Shown piece by piece: positions 30,878 to 40,450 of a stretch of 64,000 nucleotides of DNA (positions are counted from its first letter, which is position 1; every line of letters begins with the position of its first letter). The position numbers and the translations under genes were made by a program. The notes below the pieces were generated by a model. The model had not been told where the DNA came from. It was given only the letters and a program-made list of their open reading frames with translations, and made no database searches. The DNA comes from Alphaproteobacteria bacterium (GTDB lineage: Bacteria; Planctomycetota; Phycisphaerae; UBA1845): the NCBI GenBank assembly GCA_028285105.1, contig JANQQE010000024.1, positions 124,001-188,000 of the forward strand. The letters are read 5' to 3'.

Positions 30878-32689
30878 TCAGGCGGTAGCGGTGCCTGTTA
30901 GGCTTGCACCTGCAATCGGAATCAAACAAACATCCTGCGTGCTGTGGCCGGTGAGTTGCGTGATGGACACCGTTTGTGCGGGGTGCTTGGGCTCATTGCC
31001 GTTCCAGATCACGATGCGGTCGCGGGCGTCGTTGATGGCGACGATGATGTCTGCGGCGCATTCGGCGCGACGGATGGTCTGACCGCCGGCATCGTAGCGG
31101 CAGACGAAAGAATCGCCCAGTACCTGCGAGTAGACGGCCAGCGACGTGTCGGTGTAGAACAATCGGGCGACATCGCCATCGATGATCGAAGCGATGGATT
31201 CGACGGCTCGGCGGCTGCCGGCATGAATCCGCGCTGGCGATTCGCAGGTTAGACCATTCCAGTGCAGGACATCGCCATCGACCGTACCCGCGAAGATGTC
31301 GTCGCCTTCGACCGACAGAGCGGTGATCGTGTCGCCGCGTGCGGACAGTTCTGCAACACCGGATTCGAGATCGCCTTCCAACACGCTGCAAATGGTATCG
31401 TCGATGCTGCACCAGAAACGCCCGGTGGCGATCAGTGCGCAGCGAACGGCTTTGGCGTTTGGGGTTTTGTCATCGAATAGCCGAATGGCCTTCGTATTGG
31501 GCTTGCCTTCGGAATCGTCCTCTTGTTGTTGCGGCCAGGCGAGTACGCCCAGTTCCGAATGGGTCGCGACCACCCAGCGATCGCTGACCGCCACCGCATT
31601 GAAACCCCCGCGCGGCACTTTGGCACAGGTGTAGACGAATGTATTCTTGATCGCGCCGCTTGCGACATCGAGTTCATACACACCGGTCGAAGCACCAATC
31701 CATAACGTGTTTGGCTCGGCGGCGCTTGCGAACTGAACCGATCGCATCCGCCCCGCCACACCACTGACCGGGATGCGTCGAGGGGAATCGCCGAGACTGC
31801 TTGCACCGAATAGCAGGACTTCGCTACCCGTGAGTGCGACGACGTGCTCGGTGACGGGTTGCGTCGCCCGCGATTCGAACAGTGCCTGATAAAGTTGCCC
31901 ACGCTGCGATTCGGAAAACGCCTTCATCAAATCCGACATCGCGGCATGTGGCGACTCGTCGGCGAGTTCTTTCAGCTTGCCCAACATCGACTGGAGATGA
32001 TCGAGCTTTTGATTTTGCGCCGTGGTGATGGCCTCTCGCAATTCGCCCTGCGCGGCGTGTTCGTGCAATCGGCGGGCTGCGATTTCTTCGGTTGCTCGGG
32101 CGCGGGCGTGCCCTTCAGATGCGAAGCGCACCTCGCGAATGGTTTCAATCGACAACCCGCTCGCAAAGCATATCTCGGCGACGGATTCCTTGACCGCCTC
32201 AATAGCAGCCGCTCCGCACTTTCCGCCGACCAGTTCTCCAGACGTATTTGCTGCGACGAACGCCAACATGCCCTTTTCGATCGATGGGCGCAGGCACGAT
32301 TGCACGGACGCGACATCCGCATCCGATCGACTGGCAATGACCCGATCGCGAAACGAATCAAGATCGCTGCGCTCGGCAACGAGTGCGACCTGCACCTGCA
32401 CGGCAACATCGCAAAGGTAACTGTCGCTCGCGGGAACCTTCTGCATTTCAAACGTCAGGTCGATCGGTTGGCTGCGGAAAATCAGCAACTCCGCCAGATC
32501 GCTGCCGTCGATGACCTGCCCGGGGCGATGAATGCGATGAACACCGTCGCGCGAAATCGACTTCGCCGCAAAACTTGCCGGCAAATCGAAGCTTCGCTTG
32601 AACACCCCGAAGATCGCTTCTGCCGGAATGGAGACGGCAACCGAGTTCGGGTTCGACAACCATTTTTGAATGTCGATGACGCTACTCAT
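30878..32689 (-). CDS. SPFH/Band-7-like domain fused to a beta-propeller
   Basis: A 603-residue soluble-looking protein with no signal or membrane helix. Residues about 15-215 look like an SPFH (prohibitin/stomatin) domain of the YdjI type: IPAEAIFGVFKRSFD at the start, then SDSYLCDVAVQVQVALV, and a helical end with ASGLSIETIREVRF. A charged coiled coil (about 215-285) follows, then six or seven propeller-like blades (AVSDRWVVATHSELGVLAW, ALSVEGDDIFAGTVDGDVLHW). In B. subtilis an SPFH protein (YdjI) binds PspA at membranes, and here the gene is last in the cluster with three Snf7-like proteins and PspC. It is separated from the AAA gene by 140 bases, so it may have its own promoter as well. 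Confidence 0.68.
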   Translation of the reverse strand: MSSVIDIQKWLSNPNSVAVSIPAEAIFGVFKRSFDLPASFAAKSISRDGVHRIHRPGQVIDGSDLAELLIFRSQPIDLTFEMQKVPASDSYLCDVAVQVQVALVAERSDLDSFRDRVIASRSDADVASVQSCLRPSIEKGMLAFVAANTSGELVGGKCGAAAIEAVKESVAEICFASGLSIETIREVRFASEGHARARATEEIAARRLHEHAAQGELREAITTAQNQKLDHLQSMLGKLKELADESPHAAMSDLMKAFSESQRGQLYQALFESRATQPVTEHVVALTGSEVLLFGASSLGDSPRRIPVSGVAGRMRSVQFASAAEPNTLWIGASTGVYELDVASGAIKNTFVYTCAKVPRGGFNAVAVSDRWVVATHSELGVLAWPQQQEDDSEGKPNTKAIRLFDDKTPNAKAVRCALIATGRFWCSIDDTICSVLEGDLESGVAELSARGDTITALSVEGDDIFAGTVDGDVLHWNGLTCESPARIHAGSRRAVESIASIIDGDVARLFYTDTSLAVYSQVLGDSFVCRYDAGGQTIRRAECAADIIVAINDARDRIVIWNGNEPKHPAQTVSITQLTGHSTQDVCLIPIAGASLTGTATA

Positions 32690-32829: not shown

Positions 32830-33948
32830 TTACCGGCCGGTCTGTTTGAACTTGTCGAAGCGGACGAGGTCACCGGGCTTGACCGAGGGCAGTTGTGCCT
32901 CGATGCGACTCAGCATGTCGGCGAGCGTGATTTGCCGCTCACCCCCACCCATCGCATCCATGAACGCGACCTGGGCAGCCCCCATGCAGATGTTTTTGAT
33001 GTCGGCCCCGCTGTAACCATCCAACCGATCGCAGAGTACGCCAAGGTCGATGTCGGCGGCGATGGGTCGGTCAGCCAGGTAAATCTCCAGAAGCTTAAAG
33101 CGCGCCGGCGCGTCGGGCAGCCCGACATACACCTGCGTATCGAAGCGCCCGGGTCGCAGCATCGCTTCATCGAGCATCCACGGTTTATTCGTCGCCCCAA
33201 CGAACAACAGTGCCCGTTCGCCCTTGCGATCGAACCCTTCCAGTTCCTGCAAGATCTGCGGAACAACGCGGGCCATCACCGTCGATCCTTCGGACTTGCG
33301 ACGTGGGACGAGCGCCTCAATCTCGTCGATAAAAATCACCGAACGTTTGTGCTGCTTTGCCGTCTCGAAAAGCTTGCGAACGTTTTGCTCAGCTTCTCCC
33401 ACCCACTTCGAAAGAATCTGCGCGGGGCTGATGACGAAAAACGTCGAATCAATTTCCTTCGCGATGGCTTTGGCCATCATCGTCTTACCGGTTCCGGGCG
33501 GGCCATACAGCAGCACACCGCCACCGATGTTGATCCCGTACTTCGCCGCAAGTTCCGGGTGACTGAACGGATAGATCATCTTAAGGCGAATTTCCTGCTT
33601 GATGTCTTCCAACCCGGCGATGTCGTCGAAACCGATGTCGGGAGTGTCCTGTACGATCCAATCGGATGCAGAAGCGCCCTCGTCTTCGTTTTCCTTAGCA
33701 CGTTGACGGAAGCGCCCGTCTTCAGGATTGGCTTCGTATCGTTTGCAGTCCTTGGCGAGGTCGATCAGCTCTGCGGCGACTTCTTCGCGCTGACGACGCA
33801 GCTCGGGCGTGTCGCTTTCTCCCGCGAGTTCGACCATGCAGTCAGCCGCTTCGATCAGGAACGTGCCGGCGGATGCGTAGTCGCCCTTCTTGTATGCGGT
33901 GACGCCTTTGCTCTTGAGCCTCTCGAATGTGGAGTAGGATACGCCCAT
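32830..33948 (-). CDS. Vps4-like AAA ATPase with MIT-like N-terminal domain
   Basis: A 372-residue AAA protein. Residues about 5-75 form a three-helix MIT/TPR-like bundle (GDYASAGTFLIEAADCMVEL), followed by a linker and one AAA module: Walker A GPPGTGKT (149-156), pore loop SKWVGEAEQNVRKLF (180-194), Walker B FIDEIE (206-211), sensor/Arg-finger region GATNKPWMLDEAMLRPGRFD (251-270) and DGYSGADIKNI. The pore loop, the PWxLD signature and the overall 'MIT-linker-AAA' order match Vps4/katanin (meiotic-clade) ATPases, which disassemble ESCRT-III polymers; the LRPGRFD element is instead the general classic-AAA form. It lies nine bases after the CHMP-like gene. A canonical bacterial AAA of the p97/SpoVK type is the main alternative. 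Confidence 0.82.
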   Translation of the reverse strand: MGVSYSTFERLKSKGVTAYKKGDYASAGTFLIEAADCMVELAGESDTPELRRQREEVAAELIDLAKDCKRYEANPEDGRFRQRAKENEDEGASASDWIVQDTPDIGFDDIAGLEDIKQEIRLKMIYPFSHPELAAKYGINIGGGVLLYGPPGTGKTMMAKAIAKEIDSTFFVISPAQILSKWVGEAEQNVRKLFETAKQHKRSVIFIDEIEALVPRRKSEGSTVMARVVPQILQELEGFDRKGERALLFVGATNKPWMLDEAMLRPGRFDTQVYVGLPDAPARFKLLEIYLADRPIAADIDLGVLCDRLDGYSGADIKNICMGAAQVAFMDAMGGGERQITLADMLSRIEAQLPSVKPGDLVRFDKFKQTGR

Positions 33949-33957
33949 GATGTGCGG

Positions 33958-34563
33958 TTACTTCTGCTTCTCGCTCTTGCCTTTGAGGGCATCGATTTCG
34001 GCGCGGAGTCCTGCGAGTTTGCCCATTTCCTTTTGATGCTCGGCTTCGCTTTCGGCTTCGATCATGCGGTCAATCTCTTCGTCGCTGATGCCGTCAGCCG
34101 ACGTCATTTCCACATCCTGCTGGGCGACATCTTCAATTGTATCGAGGAACATGCCCATGCGCTCTTCCATCGTCTGCGACTGAACCATCGCCTTTTCCCA
34201 ATCGGCTTGCGTTTTGACCAAATCGGTTTCGCCGAAGAGCTTGCCGATTTCGCTGGCCATCATGCCCATCGCACCGGCGAAGTCGGCCGACGCTTCAGCT
34301 TGCTTCTTGATTACCATCGCGTTTTTGACGCTGAGCAGTTGGCGTTCCAGCACGCGCTTCATCGCAGCCGTTTTCTTGAGCGTGTTGCGAATGAACTGAT
34401 ACTGCGCGGTGTCGCCGATTTCCTTAGCGCGGCGGGCGTTCTGGACGAACTCGTCGGTGAACTTGCCCTGTTCGCGAATGGCTTTCTCGATACGGCGGAT
34501 GCCCTGGCGAATCTTGATATCGCGTTCAATACGACGCTCTTCGTTGGATTTGAATAAAGCCAC
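33958..34563 (-). CDS. CHMP/ESCRT-III-like helical protein with MIM1-like C-terminus
   Basis: A 201-residue, almost wholly helical protein. The first half is basic (MALFKSNEERRIERDIK...RRIEKAIREQGK), the second half acidic (EERMGMFLDTIEDVA, SDEEIDRMIEAESEAE), the charge asymmetry typical of Snf7/CHMP proteins. A Met/Gly-rich hinge (FAGAMGMMASEIGKLF, about 95-110) falls where CHMPs have a similar segment. The last helix contains LRAEIDALK (186-194), which fits the MIM1 pattern LxxRLxxLK with Glu for Arg and Ile for Leu; MIM1 is what Vps4 MIT binds. The GTG start at 34563 shares a base with the pspC stop (TAGTG), giving coupling, and the Vps4-like gene follows after nine bases. PspA is a distant alternative of the same superfamily. 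Confidence 0.7.
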   Translation of the reverse strand: MALFKSNEERRIERDIKIRQGIRRIEKAIREQGKFTDEFVQNARRAKEIGDTAQYQFIRNTLKKTAAMKRVLERQLLSVKNAMVIKKQAEASADFAGAMGMMASEIGKLFGETDLVKTQADWEKAMVQSQTMEERMGMFLDTIEDVAQQDVEMTSADGISDEEIDRMIEAESEAEHQKEMGKLAGLRAEIDALKGKSEKQK

Positions 34564-34806: not shown

Positions 34807-35415
34807 CTACTCTGTCGCGGCGTTCTGCTGTTCGCGGACGCGGCGGTCGGCTTCGTCAAACGCTTCGGTGGAATCCTCGATCGCCCCGCGATCCATCTGA
34901 TCCCAGACGTCCAGCACCGTTTGCCCTGCATCGGAAAGGGCGGCTGACCCCTCATCCACTTCGCGTCCAAGCTTCAGCACTTCGTCGAGTCGCTCCTGGT
35001 ATAACTCCGTTTTGATCGAATCGTTCTCGATCATCTTTCCGAGTCGCAGAATGTCCTTCTCGCTGATGAGTCCGAGTTGGCTTCCGGCGCTGGCGGCGCG
35101 GTCTGCATTTTCGCGCATCATCCGCAGGCGCGAAACCGTCATCATCTCTTTGCTGCGAATGTTGAGCTGCCTTGAAAGCATTAATTGCTCGGACGTCTTA
35201 AGCTCAAACTCTTGCGCCATCATACGGCGCACTTCGGGGACTTTTTCGTTGGCCCCCTTCTCGAAAAGTTCCTGCTTCTGCCGCGCGAGTTTCATCGTTT
35301 TGTTGACGAGCTGCGTGCGGTCTTTTTCCAGCAGCAACTCCTGACGCCGCAATTCTGCACGGGTCATCTTCGACAACGGTTTCTTGCGCTTCACCAGCCA
35401 ATCCATCAAAGACAT
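34807..35415 (-). CDS. Second Snf7/ESCRT-III-like coiled-coil protein
   Basis: A 202-residue all-helical protein. The N-terminal amphipathic/basic start (MSLMDWLVKRKKPLSKMTR) leads into a long hairpin-like pair of helices (LRRQELLLEKDRTQLVNKTMKL, then after the turn EKGANEKVPEVRRMMAQEFELKT), followed by an acidic tail (QTVLDVWDQMDRGAIEDSTEAFDE). Basic hairpin with acidic C-terminus and a lone Gly-containing turn is the ESCRT-III core plan. No MIM1-like ending as clear as in the 33958 product. It begins three bases after the stop of the winged-helix gene. Assignment rests on pattern and context; plain coiled-coil protein is the alternative. Confidence 0.58.
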   Translation of the reverse strand: MSLMDWLVKRKKPLSKMTRAELRRQELLLEKDRTQLVNKTMKLARQKQELFEKGANEKVPEVRRMMAQEFELKTSEQLMLSRQLNIRSKEMMTVSRLRMMRENADRAASAGSQLGLISEKDILRLGKMIENDSIKTELYQERLDEVLKLGREVDEGSAALSDAGQTVLDVWDQMDRGAIEDSTEAFDEADRRVREQQNAATE

Positions 35416-35418
35416 GCG

Positions 35419-36873
35419 TTAACTGGCCTCCGGATCGGCGGGTTTGCGCTCTTTGGTTTCAGGCGCTTTTGGTTCTTCGTCGAACATCGCAAACGACTGA
35501 TCGGAAGCGGCTGGCTGGCTTGTCTGTTTGGGCGTGGCGCTCGGCGTAGACGACTCTGCCGCCACTGGCTCATCGAACTCTGCAAGGATGTCGGCTTCTT
35601 CGCCACCGATCAGCGCTTCGCCCACACCGGTTTCCAGACTCGACACCAGGTCGGAATCAGCTTTTAACGTTTCAAGCATTTCTTCTGCCCGAACAGCATT
35701 TTCCGTCAACTCCTGCGTGTCGGGCAGCGACGCGACTTCTCCCTGCTGGATCAGCGTGAGATTGTGAACGTCGGTGCTGATGATGTTGATCTGCTGATTG
35801 AGCATGTTCGCCGTCGTGTTCTGACGAGCAATATCTTTGCGAAGCTGCGAAATCTGCGCAACCAACCGCCGGCGCACGACGGCAGACTTGTTCTCGCGCC
35901 CCTGCTTGAGAAGATCGGCTTCCTTCTCTTCGAGGCTGGCGATCTCTTCGTACAATCGGTTGCGACGCTGCGCGAGGGCAGCCCGCCGCTCCGAAAGCAT
36001 GTTGATCTTCGCGACCTCGTCTCCCTCCTTGGAAAACATCTCTTTGATACGGTCAACAAAACTCATAGACGTTTTCTCCGTGGCGACAACAGCCGCACCG
36101 CGATACAACAATCGCCCTTCCTTCGACTTGGACACCCGCAGTTCCGGGTCGCTCTTGGCGATCAGGTCCAGGGCCCGATTCACGACCTCGATCGGCAGGC
36201 CCACATCCTGGGCAATTCGATCCGATGCCAGCCCGCCGGTCAACAATTCGGTACCATTTCGCTCCACTTCGCGTTTGACCCGCTCAAGTTTCTGCTCGAT
36301 GTCCTCCGGGTCGAACATGTCGCGTACGAACTTTTGCACGCTGTCATCGGCAGTGACCTTCCAACCACCGCCCGGCAGCGGCTCCACCAATACCACATCC
36401 ATGTTCGGATATTCGTGTCGGGCATTGCGAGCTTCTTCGGTGAAACCGCTCGTCGAACACACGCCGACGACGGCACGCACCTTCGAGTCCGGAGCAATCT
36501 CTCGAAGGTGGGCGGTCAACTCGTTGAGCGACACCGGTTGTGGGTTACCGCCTTCGTCGAGCAAGTCGTCAAATCGCGACGTCACCGACGCAATCGCCGA
36601 CCCCGTCTGCCGCTTCCAGAATATGAATCGCTTCTCGTATCCGTTGACGCTGACAGTACGGTTCTTCGGCATCTGTTTGAGCAATGTGCGGTCGTACAGC
36701 CGCTTCGACGCCATCTGCGCCCGAAGCGCATCGCTGTCGTCTTTCTCGACCGTCTGCCAACTGCTGCCCCGAAGGTAGCGACTCTTGGCTTCTTCGATGT
36801 TGGCGGTCACGCCGGCGAGAAACTGATTCTCAACCTTCAACGCATCTGCCGCCGCATCGGTTAGTTTGGCCAT
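35419..36873 (-). CDS. Winged-helix plus Snf7-like protein (CHMP7-like architecture)
   Basis: A 484-residue protein with three parts. Residues 1-200: alpha/beta region with strands RAVVGVCSTSGF and DVVLVEPLPGGGW, of no family I recognise. Residues about 205-260: winged helix, with LASDRIAQDVGLPIEVVNRAL as helix-turn-helix and ELRVSKSKEGRLLYR as wing. Residues about 271-435: Snf7-like, opening SFVDRIKEMFSKEGDEVAKI, a basic hairpin (LAQRRNRLYEEIASLEEKE, VVRRRLVAQISQLRKDIARQ) and an acidic end (GGEEADILAEFDE) like CHMP4/Snf7 helix 5. A Pro/Ser/acidic tail follows. Winged helix joined to ESCRT-III is the layout of eukaryotic CHMP7. ATG 36873 has GAAGGAA upstream. Confidence 0.62.
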   Translation of the reverse strand: MAKLTDAAADALKVENQFLAGVTANIEEAKSRYLRGSSWQTVEKDDSDALRAQMASKRLYDRTLLKQMPKNRTVSVNGYEKRFIFWKRQTGSAIASVTSRFDDLLDEGGNPQPVSLNELTAHLREIAPDSKVRAVVGVCSTSGFTEEARNARHEYPNMDVVLVEPLPGGGWKVTADDSVQKFVRDMFDPEDIEQKLERVKREVERNGTELLTGGLASDRIAQDVGLPIEVVNRALDLIAKSDPELRVSKSKEGRLLYRGAAVVATEKTSMSFVDRIKEMFSKEGDEVAKINMLSERRAALAQRRNRLYEEIASLEEKEADLLKQGRENKSAVVRRRLVAQISQLRKDIARQNTTANMLNQQINIISTDVHNLTLIQQGEVASLPDTQELTENAVRAEEMLETLKADSDLVSSLETGVGEALIGGEEADILAEFDEPVAAESSTPSATPKQTSQPAASDQSFAMFDEEPKAPETKERKPADPEAS

Positions 36874-36908: not shown

Positions 36909-37241
36909 CTAAAGTCGCTGCCCGCAGCGCCCACAGTATACCGCCGAAGGACGATTCGCATATCCACATCTCCGACCCGCACACAATTTTCGGCCGCCAC
37001 GTGCCCCCAAGTCCATTGATCGCGAGGTCGCCGCATGTCGCGAGTTCTGTCTTGGGCGTTTTTCAACGTATGGACGTTTGACGCCGAATATCGCGCTTAG
37101 GAAATTCGTAAATCCCTTAAAGGCGACGCCGATCACAGCTCCTATGATCGCTAACACCCCGACGATCGCTCCCAGAAACACAAGGAAGACTAGGAGAAAA
37201 ACCGATATGACGATTCCGCTCTCGGCGATCATGCCCAACAT
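36909..37241 (-). CDS. Membrane protein with C-terminal zinc ribbon
   Basis: A 110-residue protein (start ATG 37241; a TTG at 37253 is possible) with a long hydrophobic N-terminal segment that can form two helices (IVISVFLLVFLVFLGAIVGVLAIIGAVIGVAF), a basic middle (VKRPYVEKRPRQNSR) and a C-terminal ribbon C-x4-C-x10-C-x2-C (CAGRRCGYAN...YCGRCG). The ribbon differs from the 'GN.SG' family seen elsewhere. It sits 31 bases after the kinase and 35 before the winged-helix Snf7 gene, so it is likely a membrane adaptor of this system. Zinc-ribbon membrane partners are also known beside bacterial PspA (YdjG). Confidence 0.65.
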   Translation of the reverse strand: MLGMIAESGIVISVFLLVFLVFLGAIVGVLAIIGAVIGVAFKGFTNFLSAIFGVKRPYVEKRPRQNSRHAATSRSMDLGARGGRKLCAGRRCGYANRPSAVYCGRCGQRL

Positions 37242-37272
37242 GACAATCCCCAACTAGTCACTCGCACTCCCA

Positions 37273-38364
37273 TCAAACGCGGCTGGACTGCGCAAGCATT
37301 TCACCGCAACGATCACAGTAATTGTCTTTGTCATCCACGTATGCATTGCAACTCGGGCATTTGGGAATCTGGGCAGTGACCTGCGTTCCGCATTGATCGC
37401 AGAAATTGTGGCGGGCGTCGACGACATTCGCACACTTCGGGCATGGCGATCCGCGTTGGCCCGCATCGAGAGAGACCGCCCCGCCACCGATTTTGCGAGC
37501 GGCTGGTGCAGACTTGCTGGTACGCGCCTTCGCACGTCCGCCATGATTGCGCGTGATCGCAGCCAACATCGACGTCGCCGAATCGAACCTACCCAGCAAG
37601 CGGGTATAGCTTTTTCTAAATACATCGTCGAGATAGCCAGGTATATCCGGACGATCCATGCTCGGCAGGTCGCTTCCCGCCGGTCGCGTTCCGGTCAAGA
37701 GTTCATACAGCACAACCGCGCAGCTATATAGGTCGCTCCGACCGTCTAGGTCCTCACCCGCTCGCTGTTCGGGCGACATGTACACCAACGTGCCGGCGAT
37801 GCTCTTGCCGTCGTCTGTCACAAGACTTCCCGATTGCACCAGCGATGCAGTGGTGATTCCCGTTGCCCGACCCAGTCCAAAGTCGGTCAGTTTCACGTCG
37901 CCCGGTTGAACCTTGGTGACGTCACCGTCGCCGGTGCGAAGCAGAATGTTTGCCGGTTTTACATCGCGATGTACCAGACCGGCATCGTGGGCGGCTTGTA
38001 ATCCTTCGAGGATACCGCGCATGATGTTCTGTACGGTATCGACGGGCAGTCCGCCGGGGTTGCTGTCGATCACCGTTCGCAATGACGGCCCATCGACGTA
38101 TTCCATGATCATATAAGGCGGATCTGAAAACGGATCGATGTCCATCGCCCGAACGATATTGGGATGGCGAAGGCCATGCACGACCACGCCTTCCTGCCGA
38201 AAGTTTCGCACGTATTGCGGGTCGGTCAGAATCTTAATCGCAACGACCTGATCCAGAACGTGATGCCGGGCGCGCCAAACCTGCCCAAAGCTGCCATGCC
38301 CCACCACTTCTTCAAGCAGATAATTGTTGATACGATCGTTGGGTTTGGGGAGATTCACGTCCAC
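37273..38364 (-). CDS. Serine/threonine protein kinase with two C-terminal zinc ribbons
   Basis: A 363-residue cytosolic Hanks-type kinase. Visible: G-loop GHGSFGQVW, lysine VAIKIL (K44), HRDVKPANILL (132-142), DFGLG (161-165), APE-equivalent MSPEQRAGE and the LYSCAVVLYELLTGTRP helix. After a Lys/Ala linker come two ribbons: CPKCANVVDARHNFCDQCG (C308, C311, C322, C325) and CPSCNAYVDDKDNYCDRCG (C336, C339, C350, C353). All catalytic residues are present. No membrane helix, unlike PknB. Start is GTG 38364 or, with better Shine-Dalgarno spacing, GTG 38358. Within the cluster it is the obvious signalling input, and phosphorylation of Snf7-like proteins would be a fair hypothesis. Confidence 0.9.
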   Translation of the reverse strand: MDVNLPKPNDRINNYLLEEVVGHGSFGQVWRARHHVLDQVVAIKILTDPQYVRNFRQEGVVVHGLRHPNIVRAMDIDPFSDPPYMIMEYVDGPSLRTVIDSNPGGLPVDTVQNIMRGILEGLQAAHDAGLVHRDVKPANILLRTGDGDVTKVQPGDVKLTDFGLGRATGITTASLVQSGSLVTDDGKSIAGTLVYMSPEQRAGEDLDGRSDLYSCAVVLYELLTGTRPAGSDLPSMDRPDIPGYLDDVFRKSYTRLLGRFDSATSMLAAITRNHGGRAKARTSKSAPAARKIGGGAVSLDAGQRGSPCPKCANVVDARHNFCDQCGTQVTAQIPKCPSCNAYVDDKDNYCDRCGEMLAQSSRV

Positions 38365-38421: not shown

Positions 38422-38826
38422 CTACAATTGATCTTCGAAATGAGACGCTTGAAAGTCGCAGACCAGAAAATTATAGACCGCCGCACATAGGAATCCAAGC
38501 AGCAGTACCATCCAAGTCAGCGCACCGCTCACGTTCCAGTTGGCCAGGTACAACGCAAACAACACGTCTACCGCTACAAGTCCGAACAATAGCAAACCGG
38601 CTGCGACATTGGAGTCCTGCTTCACCACGCGCCCGGTCACAAAGAACGCAGCCCAGGGCAGAACCAGCACCAACCCCAACCATACCAGTACGCCCTTGAG
38701 TACCGACCAGATCGTCTCAAGTTGCTCGGGATGTTTGTAGAACCAAAACGCGCTGGCTGCACTTGCCACGATGAGGATCGCGGTGAGCACTTTGCCTCCA
38801 ACATATTTGCCGATTGTGGCGTACAT
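38422..38826 (-). CDS. Four-helix membrane protein, first gene of the ESCRT-like cluster
   Basis: A 134-residue protein with hydrophobic segments at about 12-27, 45-66 (GVLVWLGLVLVLPWAAFFVTG), 75-93 and 98-118, and short loops; the end is acidic/aromatic (CDFQASHFEDQL). I recognise no family. Start ATG 38826 has a very good site (GGAGGA five bases before); the frame is open 20 codons further upstream. It precedes the kinase by 57 bases. As the first gene of the cluster it may be the membrane sensor or anchor. Confidence 0.65.
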   Translation of the reverse strand: MYATIGKYVGGKVLTAILIVASAASAFWFYKHPEQLETIWSVLKGVLVWLGLVLVLPWAAFFVTGRVVKQDSNVAAGLLLFGLVAVDVLFALYLANWNVSGALTWMVLLLGFLCAAVYNFLVCDFQASHFEDQL

Positions 38827-38948
38827 AAATTCCTCCGAGAATCCGAGATGCTGCCCCGTGCGAGACACGATCCCAGCCGATTCCAATGAGAGTTTAACCC
38901 ACGCTTGGGCGCTGGGCGATTAGAAAGCCCAGTCCATTGTATACCGGC

Positions 38949-39034: not shown

Positions 39035-40450
39035 TTAGCGGCCCTGAACGACTGGCTTCTTGGCGTCTCGTTTGGAGTCATAAAGACTAAGGTCGGCCAA
39101 TCGCACGAGATCATCAGGATTGTCGGACGACACATCGTCGAGACTTGCAGTTCCGATGCTCATGCCCACATTGCAACGTGGATATTGAATCGAGATGACT
39201 TCGTTAAAACGATCTTGAATGCGCTGGGCCAACCCTTTGGCTTGCTCGGAATCGACTTGTGGCATGAGCAAGACAAACTCGTCGCCACCGAAACGCGCTG
39301 CAACGTCCGAAGAACGCAATTCCTGTTCGATTGTGGTCGCAGCCAACTTGAGAATTTCATCGCCATATTGGTGACCATGCGTATCGTTGACCGATTTGAA
39401 ATCGTCCAGGTCGATCATGATGCACGCCAACGACGAATCATAGCGTTTCGATTCGGCGAACCGGCGGTTGAGGACTTCGTTGAAATGGCGACGGTTGTAC
39501 AGACCGGTCAGCGGGTCGCGCGATGCAAGATCCTGCAACTGCTTCGTTCGCTCAACCACGCGATGCTCAAGATACGAATTCAATTCGGTGATTTCCATGT
39601 GCTTTTGCTGGAGACGTTCGGCCATCAGGTTGTATGCAACAGCCAACTCGCCGATTTCGTCCGCACCGCCAATGCGACATCTGGCATTGAGGTCGCCATT
39701 TGCGAACTTCGAAATCGAATCGGACAGCGATGCCAATGGTCGCAACAATCGAAGCACCAGCAGATACGCTAATGGCACGGTCAAACAAATAATTATTACT
39801 GCGATTCCGCTGAGCAGTTCCGATGCGGCGTTCACCTCCGCAAGGGTTTGCTCAAGCGAATAACCGATTCGCACGTACCCGATCAACTGCTCTGATCCGC
39901 TCGACTGCTCAAGCGTTTTCCCCGTCTTATCCGCCAATTGGTCCTCGACATCGCCATTTGCAACCCGAACCGGATAAGTCACGTCGAGATAACCGCCACC
40001 ATCGTTTGTATCCGCATTGCGGATCGGTTGGCCGATCGTGGTATCCGGAGTGAAACCTTCTGTCAGCGAGTTGCCTGCAACCCGCGTGGGCGATTCGACG
40101 GATGCAAGCATTCGTCCGTGAGCATCCATAAAGGAGACGAACAGCAACGACTTAGCCCGCACAGAACGGGCGGCTAACAGTTGAAGTGCAGATTTTCCCA
40201 GATCGTATTCGTCGGCGGCTTTATATGCGAGAAGCGCTGCTTCCTGACGACAATGATCCATCTGAATACGTCGAACGATGAGCGTGGCATGGTCCGTCGT
40301 CACACTACCCACGATCATTCCAACGGCCAGCGCCAATCCCACCACCAGGCACGTGAATTTCAATTGCAGTCCCGTGCGTAGCAATCGCCGACGCCGATGC
40401 GGTTCGGGCGAAACGGACAGGTTCGGAAATAGGATGGATTCTTCAGACAT
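39035..40450 (-). CDS. Membrane-bound diguanylate cyclase with HAMP domain
   Basis: A 471-residue sensor. Membrane helix at about 31-50, a periplasmic sensor region (51-210) with a Cache-like look (SLLFVSFMDAHGRMLASVES), second helix at 211-235, HAMP (236-288), a short coiled coil and a GGDEF domain (305-465). The active loop is intact, RFGGDEF (GGDEF 388-392), and the product-inhibition I-site RSSD (379-382) stands five residues before it. It should make cyclic di-GMP on an extracellular cue and be feedback-inhibited. It lies 208 bases upstream of the ESCRT-like cluster, same direction, likely separate. Confidence 0.92.
   Translation of the reverse strand: MSEESILFPNLSVSPEPHRRRRLLRTGLQLKFTCLVVGLALAVGMIVGSVTTDHATLIVRRIQMDHCRQEAALLAYKAADEYDLGKSALQLLAARSVRAKSLLFVSFMDAHGRMLASVESPTRVAGNSLTEGFTPDTTIGQPIRNADTNDGGGYLDVTYPVRVANGDVEDQLADKTGKTLEQSSGSEQLIGYVRIGYSLEQTLAEVNAASELLSGIAVIIICLTVPLAYLLVLRLLRPLASLSDSISKFANGDLNARCRIGGADEIGELAVAYNLMAERLQQKHMEITELNSYLEHRVVERTKQLQDLASRDPLTGLYNRRHFNEVLNRRFAESKRYDSSLACIMIDLDDFKSVNDTHGHQYGDEILKLAATTIEQELRSSDVAARFGGDEFVLLMPQVDSEQAKGLAQRIQDRFNEVISIQYPRCNVGMSIGTASLDDVSSDNPDDLVRLADLSLYDSKRDAKKPVVQGR

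Follow-up and report, generated by a model that had tools for sequence, protein, structure and literature searches.

A CHMP-like protein and an adjoining AAA ATPase with an MIT-like N-terminal domain as the probable core of an ESCRT-type system in Planctomycetota

The window analyzed here is a stretch of 64,000 nucleotides from a genome of the Phycisphaerae (Planctomycetota), whose close relatives are labelled Phycisphaerales or UBA1845. It contains a gene for a CHMP-like (ESCRT-III-like) protein and, next on the same strand, a gene for an AAA ATPase that we term AAA1, with 9 bases between the stop codon of the former and the ATG of the latter (Table 1). The CHMP-like frame opens with GTG, and its orthologues start with MGLFKS or MALFKS. 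Both genes belong to a cluster in the order cc344, GGDEF, tm154, kinase, cc484, cc202, CHMP, AAA1 and 603-aa protein, which is kept fully or partly across the taxonomic order of the window genome. Insertions separate CHMP and AAA1 in some genomes of this order; most genomes of family f13 retain the AAA, though without linkage. Since the diguanylate-cyclase-like gene recurs in the same cluster of relatives, a link to signaling is suggested. Furthermore, we considered cc202 and cc484 as ESCRT-III paralogues and discarded this idea, as profile comparison with CHMP showed no relation.

Table 1. Genes and sequence features of the locus, with positions in the window
Feature	Position	Strand	Remarks
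603-aa protein, downstream of AAA1	30878..32689	-	conserved; beta-propeller-like (inferred)
AAA1, single-domain classical AAA ATPase with N-terminal MIT-like domain, 372 aa	32830..33948	-	
AAA1 core and lid	32833..33657	-	SKWVGEAE resembles a pore loop; has the signature LRPGRFD; Vps4_C matches weakly at the end
AAA1 MIT-like three-helix domain (residues 1-75)	33724..33948	-	K66 aligns with VPS4A E68
CHMP-like (ESCRT-III-like) protein, 201 aa	33958..34563	-	predicted helices 7-49, 52-109, 115-153, 161-197
MIM1-like nonamer LRAEIDALK (residues 186-194)	33982..34008	-	E189 stands where MIM1 has Arg
DEEIDRMI (residues 161-168)	34060..34083	-	opens the C-terminal helix; kept throughout the phylum-wide family
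cc202, conserved coiled-coil/helical subunit	34807..35415	-	homologue of the cc484 C-terminal half
cc484, N-terminal globular region fused to a cc202-like coiled coil	35419..36873	-	probable winged helix (inferred)
Protein with membrane segment and zinc ribbon	36909..37253	-	seen mostly in the nearest relatives
Ser/Thr kinase with double zinc ribbon	37273..38364	-	conserved operon member
tm154, small membrane protein (by reading)	38422..38886	-	conserved operon member
Diguanylate-cyclase-like (GGDEF) gene (by reading)	39035-40450		recurrent in the gene cluster of relatives

Across the window's order the CHMP-like orthologues share 60-98% identity, which is high for a coiled-coil protein. A PDB search with a 57-member CHMP profile placed human CHMP3 first (E 0.0017, residues 13-164, collinear in both proteins), followed by two more CHMP3 entries and a weak match to CHMP2A (E 0.42). 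Pfam Snf7 matched 7 of the 57 family members (best 4.7e-4); the window protein itself had no Snf7 match in Pfam, and none of the single sequences examined passed the Pfam cut-offs for MIT and Snf7. An AF2 model gave four helices in the ESCRT-III plan, a hairpin of helices 1-2 followed by helices 3-5, with pLDDT mostly 60-88. This model came from a read-through fusion used as a prediction device (pTM 0.48); the stop codon is genuine, and we do not propose a fused protein. With the model, Foldseek listed CHMP2A among its matches (prob 0.99), and VIA superposed it on Snf7 9jsd with Z 9.9 and an rmsd of 3.5 over 114 residues. For this model and for that of the AAA1 N-terminal domain, Foldseek returned nothing with E <0.001. 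Because these individually weak signals combine, and because a homologue occurs in the archaeon Thermococcus, the CHMP-like protein likely belongs to ESCRT-III. In one relative (L103:7385 region, G240:C23:83892-84131) a short frame near the full gene holds an extra CHMP tail only, corresponding to query residues 122-200. Matches of the tail (146-199) in frames of 650-670 aa (G051, G054, G203, G268 and G270) were dismissed as chance similarity; by length and DnaK match these frames are probably DnaK.

The first 75 or so residues of AAA1 had been described in the earlier note as a three-helix bundle resembling MIT, and the structure model agrees with this description. Three helices are predicted (5-21, 24-44 and 48-73; mean pLDDT 85), and the Foldseek matches are led by the MIT domains of VPS4B, SKD1, yeast Vps4, MITD1, VPS4A and katanin (TM 0.69-0.79, rmsd 1.1-2.5), with a best E of 0.021 that is modest and unsurprising for an 85-residue bundle. 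A TPR fold, named in that note as the finding that would speak against it, was not favored by Foldseek: the bundle reaches TM 0.7-0.8 to MIT versus 0.32-0.35 to designed TPRs (rmsd about 11-13). Some TPR-domain proteins (AIP) align better than the designed TPRs in VIA, with Z 11-12, values near which a common arrangement of helices can suffice for helical bundles. On the structure model, a TPR identity of the N-terminal domain thus appears unlikely. Profile methods gave a more mixed picture. Designed TPRs scored strongest against the AAA1 N-domain profile in the PDB, each over only about 24 residues of helix 1-2, and one MIT domain was matched, that of chitin synthase 2mpk, over 11-67. Among 40 AAA1 N-domains, Pfam assigned TPR_2 to 15 and MIT to 3, the latter weakly (best 0.013). 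Pfam MIT left the AAA1 of the window unmatched, and a search of its own genome gave, among the matches listed, other places but not AAA1. The N-domain is, however, homologous over its whole length to that of AAA2, a second MIT-AAA of other Planctomycetota (hhalign 93%, E 2.4e-7). The profile of the AAA2 N-domain against the PDB returned VPS4 MIT domains in all top six positions (E 3.7e-4 to 0.0064), and this connection strengthens the assignment of the AAA1 N-domain as MIT.

With an MIT-like domain followed by a single classical AAA module, AAA1 has the architecture of Vps4 and CdvC. The NCBIfam CdvC model aligns over residues 16-366, N-domain included, at a score of 230 versus a cut-off of 650. 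Vps4_C gave 17.3 bits on the window protein, under the cut-off of 21.3; this cut-off was reached in one AAA2 and in one AAA1 orthologue, the latter at L171 (28.2 bits). In both AAA trees, for which the reference AAA sequences are those of the PDB, AAA1 forms a clade of its own (100/99 and 100/100). One tree places it, with modest support (93/81), apart from the reference clades of Vps4 and CdvC; in the other, the backbone support of 73/25 does not single out Vps4, CdvC or Cdc48 as nearest to AAA1. A defence role for AAA1 and AAA2 found no support, since the PADLOC IetA matches arise mainly through the AAA core. One could also read AAA1 as a Cdc48/PAN-like unfoldase for other substrates that carries a short TPR-like adaptor, next to a generic coiled-coil protein, with a likeness to ESCRT that is convergent. 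The roughly equal scores of AAA1 against the PAN, CdvC and Cdc48 models and its LRPGRFD signature fit this explanation, as do the TPR_2 matches and the designed TPRs heading the profile search. The fold comparison, the link of the AAA2 N-domain to VPS4 MIT, the first place of CHMP3 in the CHMP profile search and the recurrence of Snf7 among family members all argue against it, and we regard it as unlikely.

The CHMP-like gene and AAA1 also occur together in other genomes. Counted over 248 genomes of the class, leaving out three DnaK-like matches and one weak AAA match, both genes were found in 68 and neither in 175; three had CHMP only (G028, G104 and G145) and two AAA1 only (G243 and G160). 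All five exceptions are assemblies with at least 300 contigs. This co-occurrence is support and no test of binding, because shared ancestry accounts for much of it. In a threshold search of 292 Planctomycetota genomes, CHMP was detected in 43 and AAA1 in 27, and all 27 had CHMP as well. PspA is the known bacterial relative of ESCRT-III (PMC8281802), and the CHMP-like protein could in principle be an ordinary PspA/Vipp1 that has no partner of the Vps4 type. We consider this highly improbable, given the near-perfect co-occurrence with an MIT-AAA. Moreover, the recurrent weak Pfam match is to Snf7 and not to PspA, and PspA_IM30 matched nothing in 14 planctomycete genomes, that of the window included, versus 9 of 14 controls.

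In many loci of the phylum AAA2 lies beside CHMP, so that CHMP is placed between two MIT-AAAs; AAA2 is encoded upstream of CHMP at L171:1698-2912, L186:5805-7109, L176:6624-7853 and in other phylum loci. In some phylum loci the cc202-like gene is present twice and cc484 is split. AAA2 bears the Vps4-like signatures LSKYFGESSKI and SRFEKKILIPLPD. Profile searches for AAA2 in the window genome, its order and f13 retrieved AAA1 and other AAAs only, and no AAA2. Family f47 (e.g. L186, L188, L191 and L205) has CHMP and AAA2, with no AAA1 at threshold. Together with AAAs from ESCRT-type loci on archaeal plasmids, AAA2 forms one clade (100/100). A plasmid of Candidatus Chlorohelix allophototropha (Chloroflexota; L208, 1-4655) encodes AAA2, a Ser/Thr kinase and two coiled-coil proteins, one of them related to cc202/cc484; CHMP was not detectable in this locus. 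On a plasmid of Thermococcus peptonophilus (NZ_CP014751.1; L214, 1676-9579) we found homologues of CHMP, AAA2, cc202 (two) and the N-terminal part of cc484, together with a kinase and PP2C; cc202 is thus homologous to subunits of both the Thermococcus and the Chlorohelix loci. The CHMP homologue was found with a profile E of 1.7e-19 in a nine-protein search and itself matches Snf7 (4.2e-4). The AAA2 homologue was found with E 1.8e-113 and reaches 35.8 bits for Vps4_C; a homologous system adjoining a Vps4_C-positive AAA again speaks against convergence of generic coiled coils and unfoldases. The globular N-terminal region of cc484 is homologous to a 607-aa protein of this locus (hhalign 94.8%, E 5.5e-8). 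Judged by gene content, the Thermococcus locus is probably of the euryarchaeal 'Main' ESCRT type; a published survey lists solo Vps4 in several Thermococcales.

As the earlier note had observed, the 201-residue protein ends in a helix that carries LRAEIDALK and agrees with LxxRLxxLK save for Glu in place of Arg and Ile in place of Leu; the nonamer sits inside the predicted terminal helix. Of shuffled versions of the 43-residue tail, 0.075% contained LxxE[LI]xx[LV][KR] and 1% contained a relaxed motif. All distinct orthologues inspected from the window's order bear the nonamer, which reads L-R-A-E-[LI]-x-x-[LV]-K with few exceptions (67 distinct sequences; the search pattern itself fixes L1 and E4). 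The expected conservation in orthologues thus holds within the order and ends there: outside it, including lineages that retain AAA1, LxxE[LI]xx[LV][KR] is absent, so that 52 of 119 distinct sequences are without the motif. Tails outside the order are amphipathic in other registers (GLKEIEKELGK, ELESEIAKEL and REELDREIARELG), and lineage f43 alone has near-canonical MIM1 cores, [VM]xxRLxxLR. A 4-3 hydrophobic spacing is found in 98 of 117 distinct tails versus 10.7 expected by shuffling, a significance that is overstated because shuffling ignores helix periodicity and relatedness.

MIM1 has been described as (D/E)xxLxxRLxxL(K/R), held in the groove between MIT helices 2 and 3, with its Arg meeting acidic residues of helix 3 and VPS4 E68 among the listed contacts (PMC5141497); VPS4A L64D blocks MIM1 (PMC11218997). 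The strict pattern was found neither in the window protein nor in any tail of its order, which have E for R. Therefore, of the MIM1-MIT pairing proposed earlier, an ESCRT-III-like subunit beside an MIT-bearing AAA stands, and a canonical MIM1-MIT pair in the window is unproven. The accompanying statement that this pairing is how CdvC of Sulfolobus recruits ESCRT-III was mistaken, since crenarchaeal CdvB is without MIM1 and uses MIM2 instead (PMC7240154). At MIT position 66, aligned by VIA with VPS4 E68, all 49 partners of Glu-type tails carry K or R and all 5 partners of Arg/Lys-type tails carry Glu; the remaining tail types pair mostly with K or R, and this pairing was spotted post hoc. As the five share one lineage, the charge pairing represents one or two evolutionary events and is only suggestive.

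It is possible, though in our view rather doubtful, that the AAA docks through another element, e.g. DEEIDRMI, or through another subunit (cc202 or cc484), with the LRAEIDALK helix serving in polymerisation or autoinhibition. This contests the docking step alone and not the whole ESCRT-type system. It is favored by the DEEIDRMI-like segment, which is present by pattern in at least 114 of the 119 distinct sequences and hence more widespread than the order-specific nonamer, and by f47, which retains an amphipathic tail without AAA1 at threshold. On the other hand, f47 keeps AAA2, which could use the tail, and the excess of the 4-3 spacing over the shuffled expectation, the near-exact MIM1 cores in one lineage and the charge pairing with MIT 66 point to docking by the tail.

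We therefore consider it probable that the window holds the core of a bacterial system for membrane remodelling of the ESCRT type, in which the MIT domain of AAA1 binds the CHMP tail and the polymer is disassembled. This reading is built on computed results: the CHMP-like protein follows the ESCRT-III helix plan, the N-domain models as an MIT fold, the two genes are linked and co-occur, the tail helix is conserved, and AAA1 has the AAA motor. A working recruitment system in the window is likely. Judging from the protein families, the CHMP-like subunit with its ESCRT-III fold would probably polymerise on the membrane. The MIT domain of AAA1 would bind the acidic amphipathic C-terminal helix of CHMP in its helix 2/3 groove, and AAA1 would then extract subunits from the polymer using ATP, as Vps4 and CdvC do. 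In the window's order the tail resembles a charge-swapped MIM1, with Glu189 putatively opposite Lys66 of the MIT domain, a pair of positions occupied by Arg and Glu68 in eukaryotes. The proteins cc202 and cc484 and the kinase with zinc ribbons probably act as co-subunits or regulators. Genes for an ESCRT-III-like protein and an AAA are both present and associated, and they make up a complete ESCRT system if AAA1 and AAA2 count as Vps4-type. The wider proposal is evenly balanced in our judgement: Planctomycetota may possess a complete ESCRT made up of several helical subunits and a wH-type partner, under the control of a kinase and with as many as two MIT-AAA motors, one of Vps4 type that Euryarchaeota also have and one of its own clade; in the window's order the MIM-MIT interface would be charge-swapped.

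With the euryarchaeal 'Main'-clade ESCRT (Makarova et al. 2024, PMC10936438) the system shares ESCRT-III, a Vps4-type AAA, a coiled-coil/globular/wH protein and a Ser/Thr kinase. It differs in being bacterial, in the zinc ribbons of the window-type kinase and in the diguanylate cyclase and small membrane protein that join the cluster; the window's order keeps AAA1, with its own clade, whereas AAA2 was not found there. Like CdvABC of Thermoproteota, it has an ESCRT-III subunit adjoining an MIT-AAA, and NCBIfam CdvC spans nearly the whole of AAA1; however, no CdvA was recognised and no MIM2 identified in the window system, whereas published CdvB uses MIM2. Eukaryotic Vps4 and the MIM1 tails of CHMP1/2/3 share with it the MIT fold, the amphipathic C-terminal helix and the L-x3-L-x2-L-K spacing, but the window has Glu for the MIM1 Arg and Lys for the MIT Glu, and AAA1 lacks the eukaryotic RRRFEKRIYIPLP signature and forms its own clade. 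PspA and Vipp1 of bacteria have the ESCRT-III superfamily fold as well; the window protein has no PspA_IM30 match, and PspA is described as being without a clear Vps4 partner (PMC7615534). Vps4-like AAAs have also been transferred to bacteria (Ravi et al. 2024, PMC11237479), but in those systems an unrelated TPR/6TM protein displaces Snf7, while the ESCRT-III-like gene is present and linked in the window. The same study also describes Snf7 or PspA genes of bacteria in the vicinity of other AAA+ ATPases, so that there is some precedent for such an association (PMC11237479).

The system could have a role in division, budding, vesicle formation or membrane repair. A test of 33 planctomycete genomes, carriers of the system as well as non-carriers, found FtsZ in none of them. 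As FtsZ was also not found in the tested genomes that lack the system, we rejected the idea that it is a general FtsZ substitute. Among the carriers of the system are planctomycetes without a detected FtsZ or PspA. According to reviews, paired ESCRT-III/ATPase systems do not occur in bacteria. If true, a linked and co-inherited ESCRT-III/MIT-AAA pair across a bacterial phylum would contradict this view. The open-access literature that was searched yielded no paper joining ESCRT-III, Vps4 and Planctomycetota and no description of such a system. How ESCRT arose and spread laterally, and how specific MIT-MIM recognition is, become questions that small recombinant proteins can test directly. As a natural experiment, the f47 genomes bear on the question of which ATPase engages the CHMP tail.
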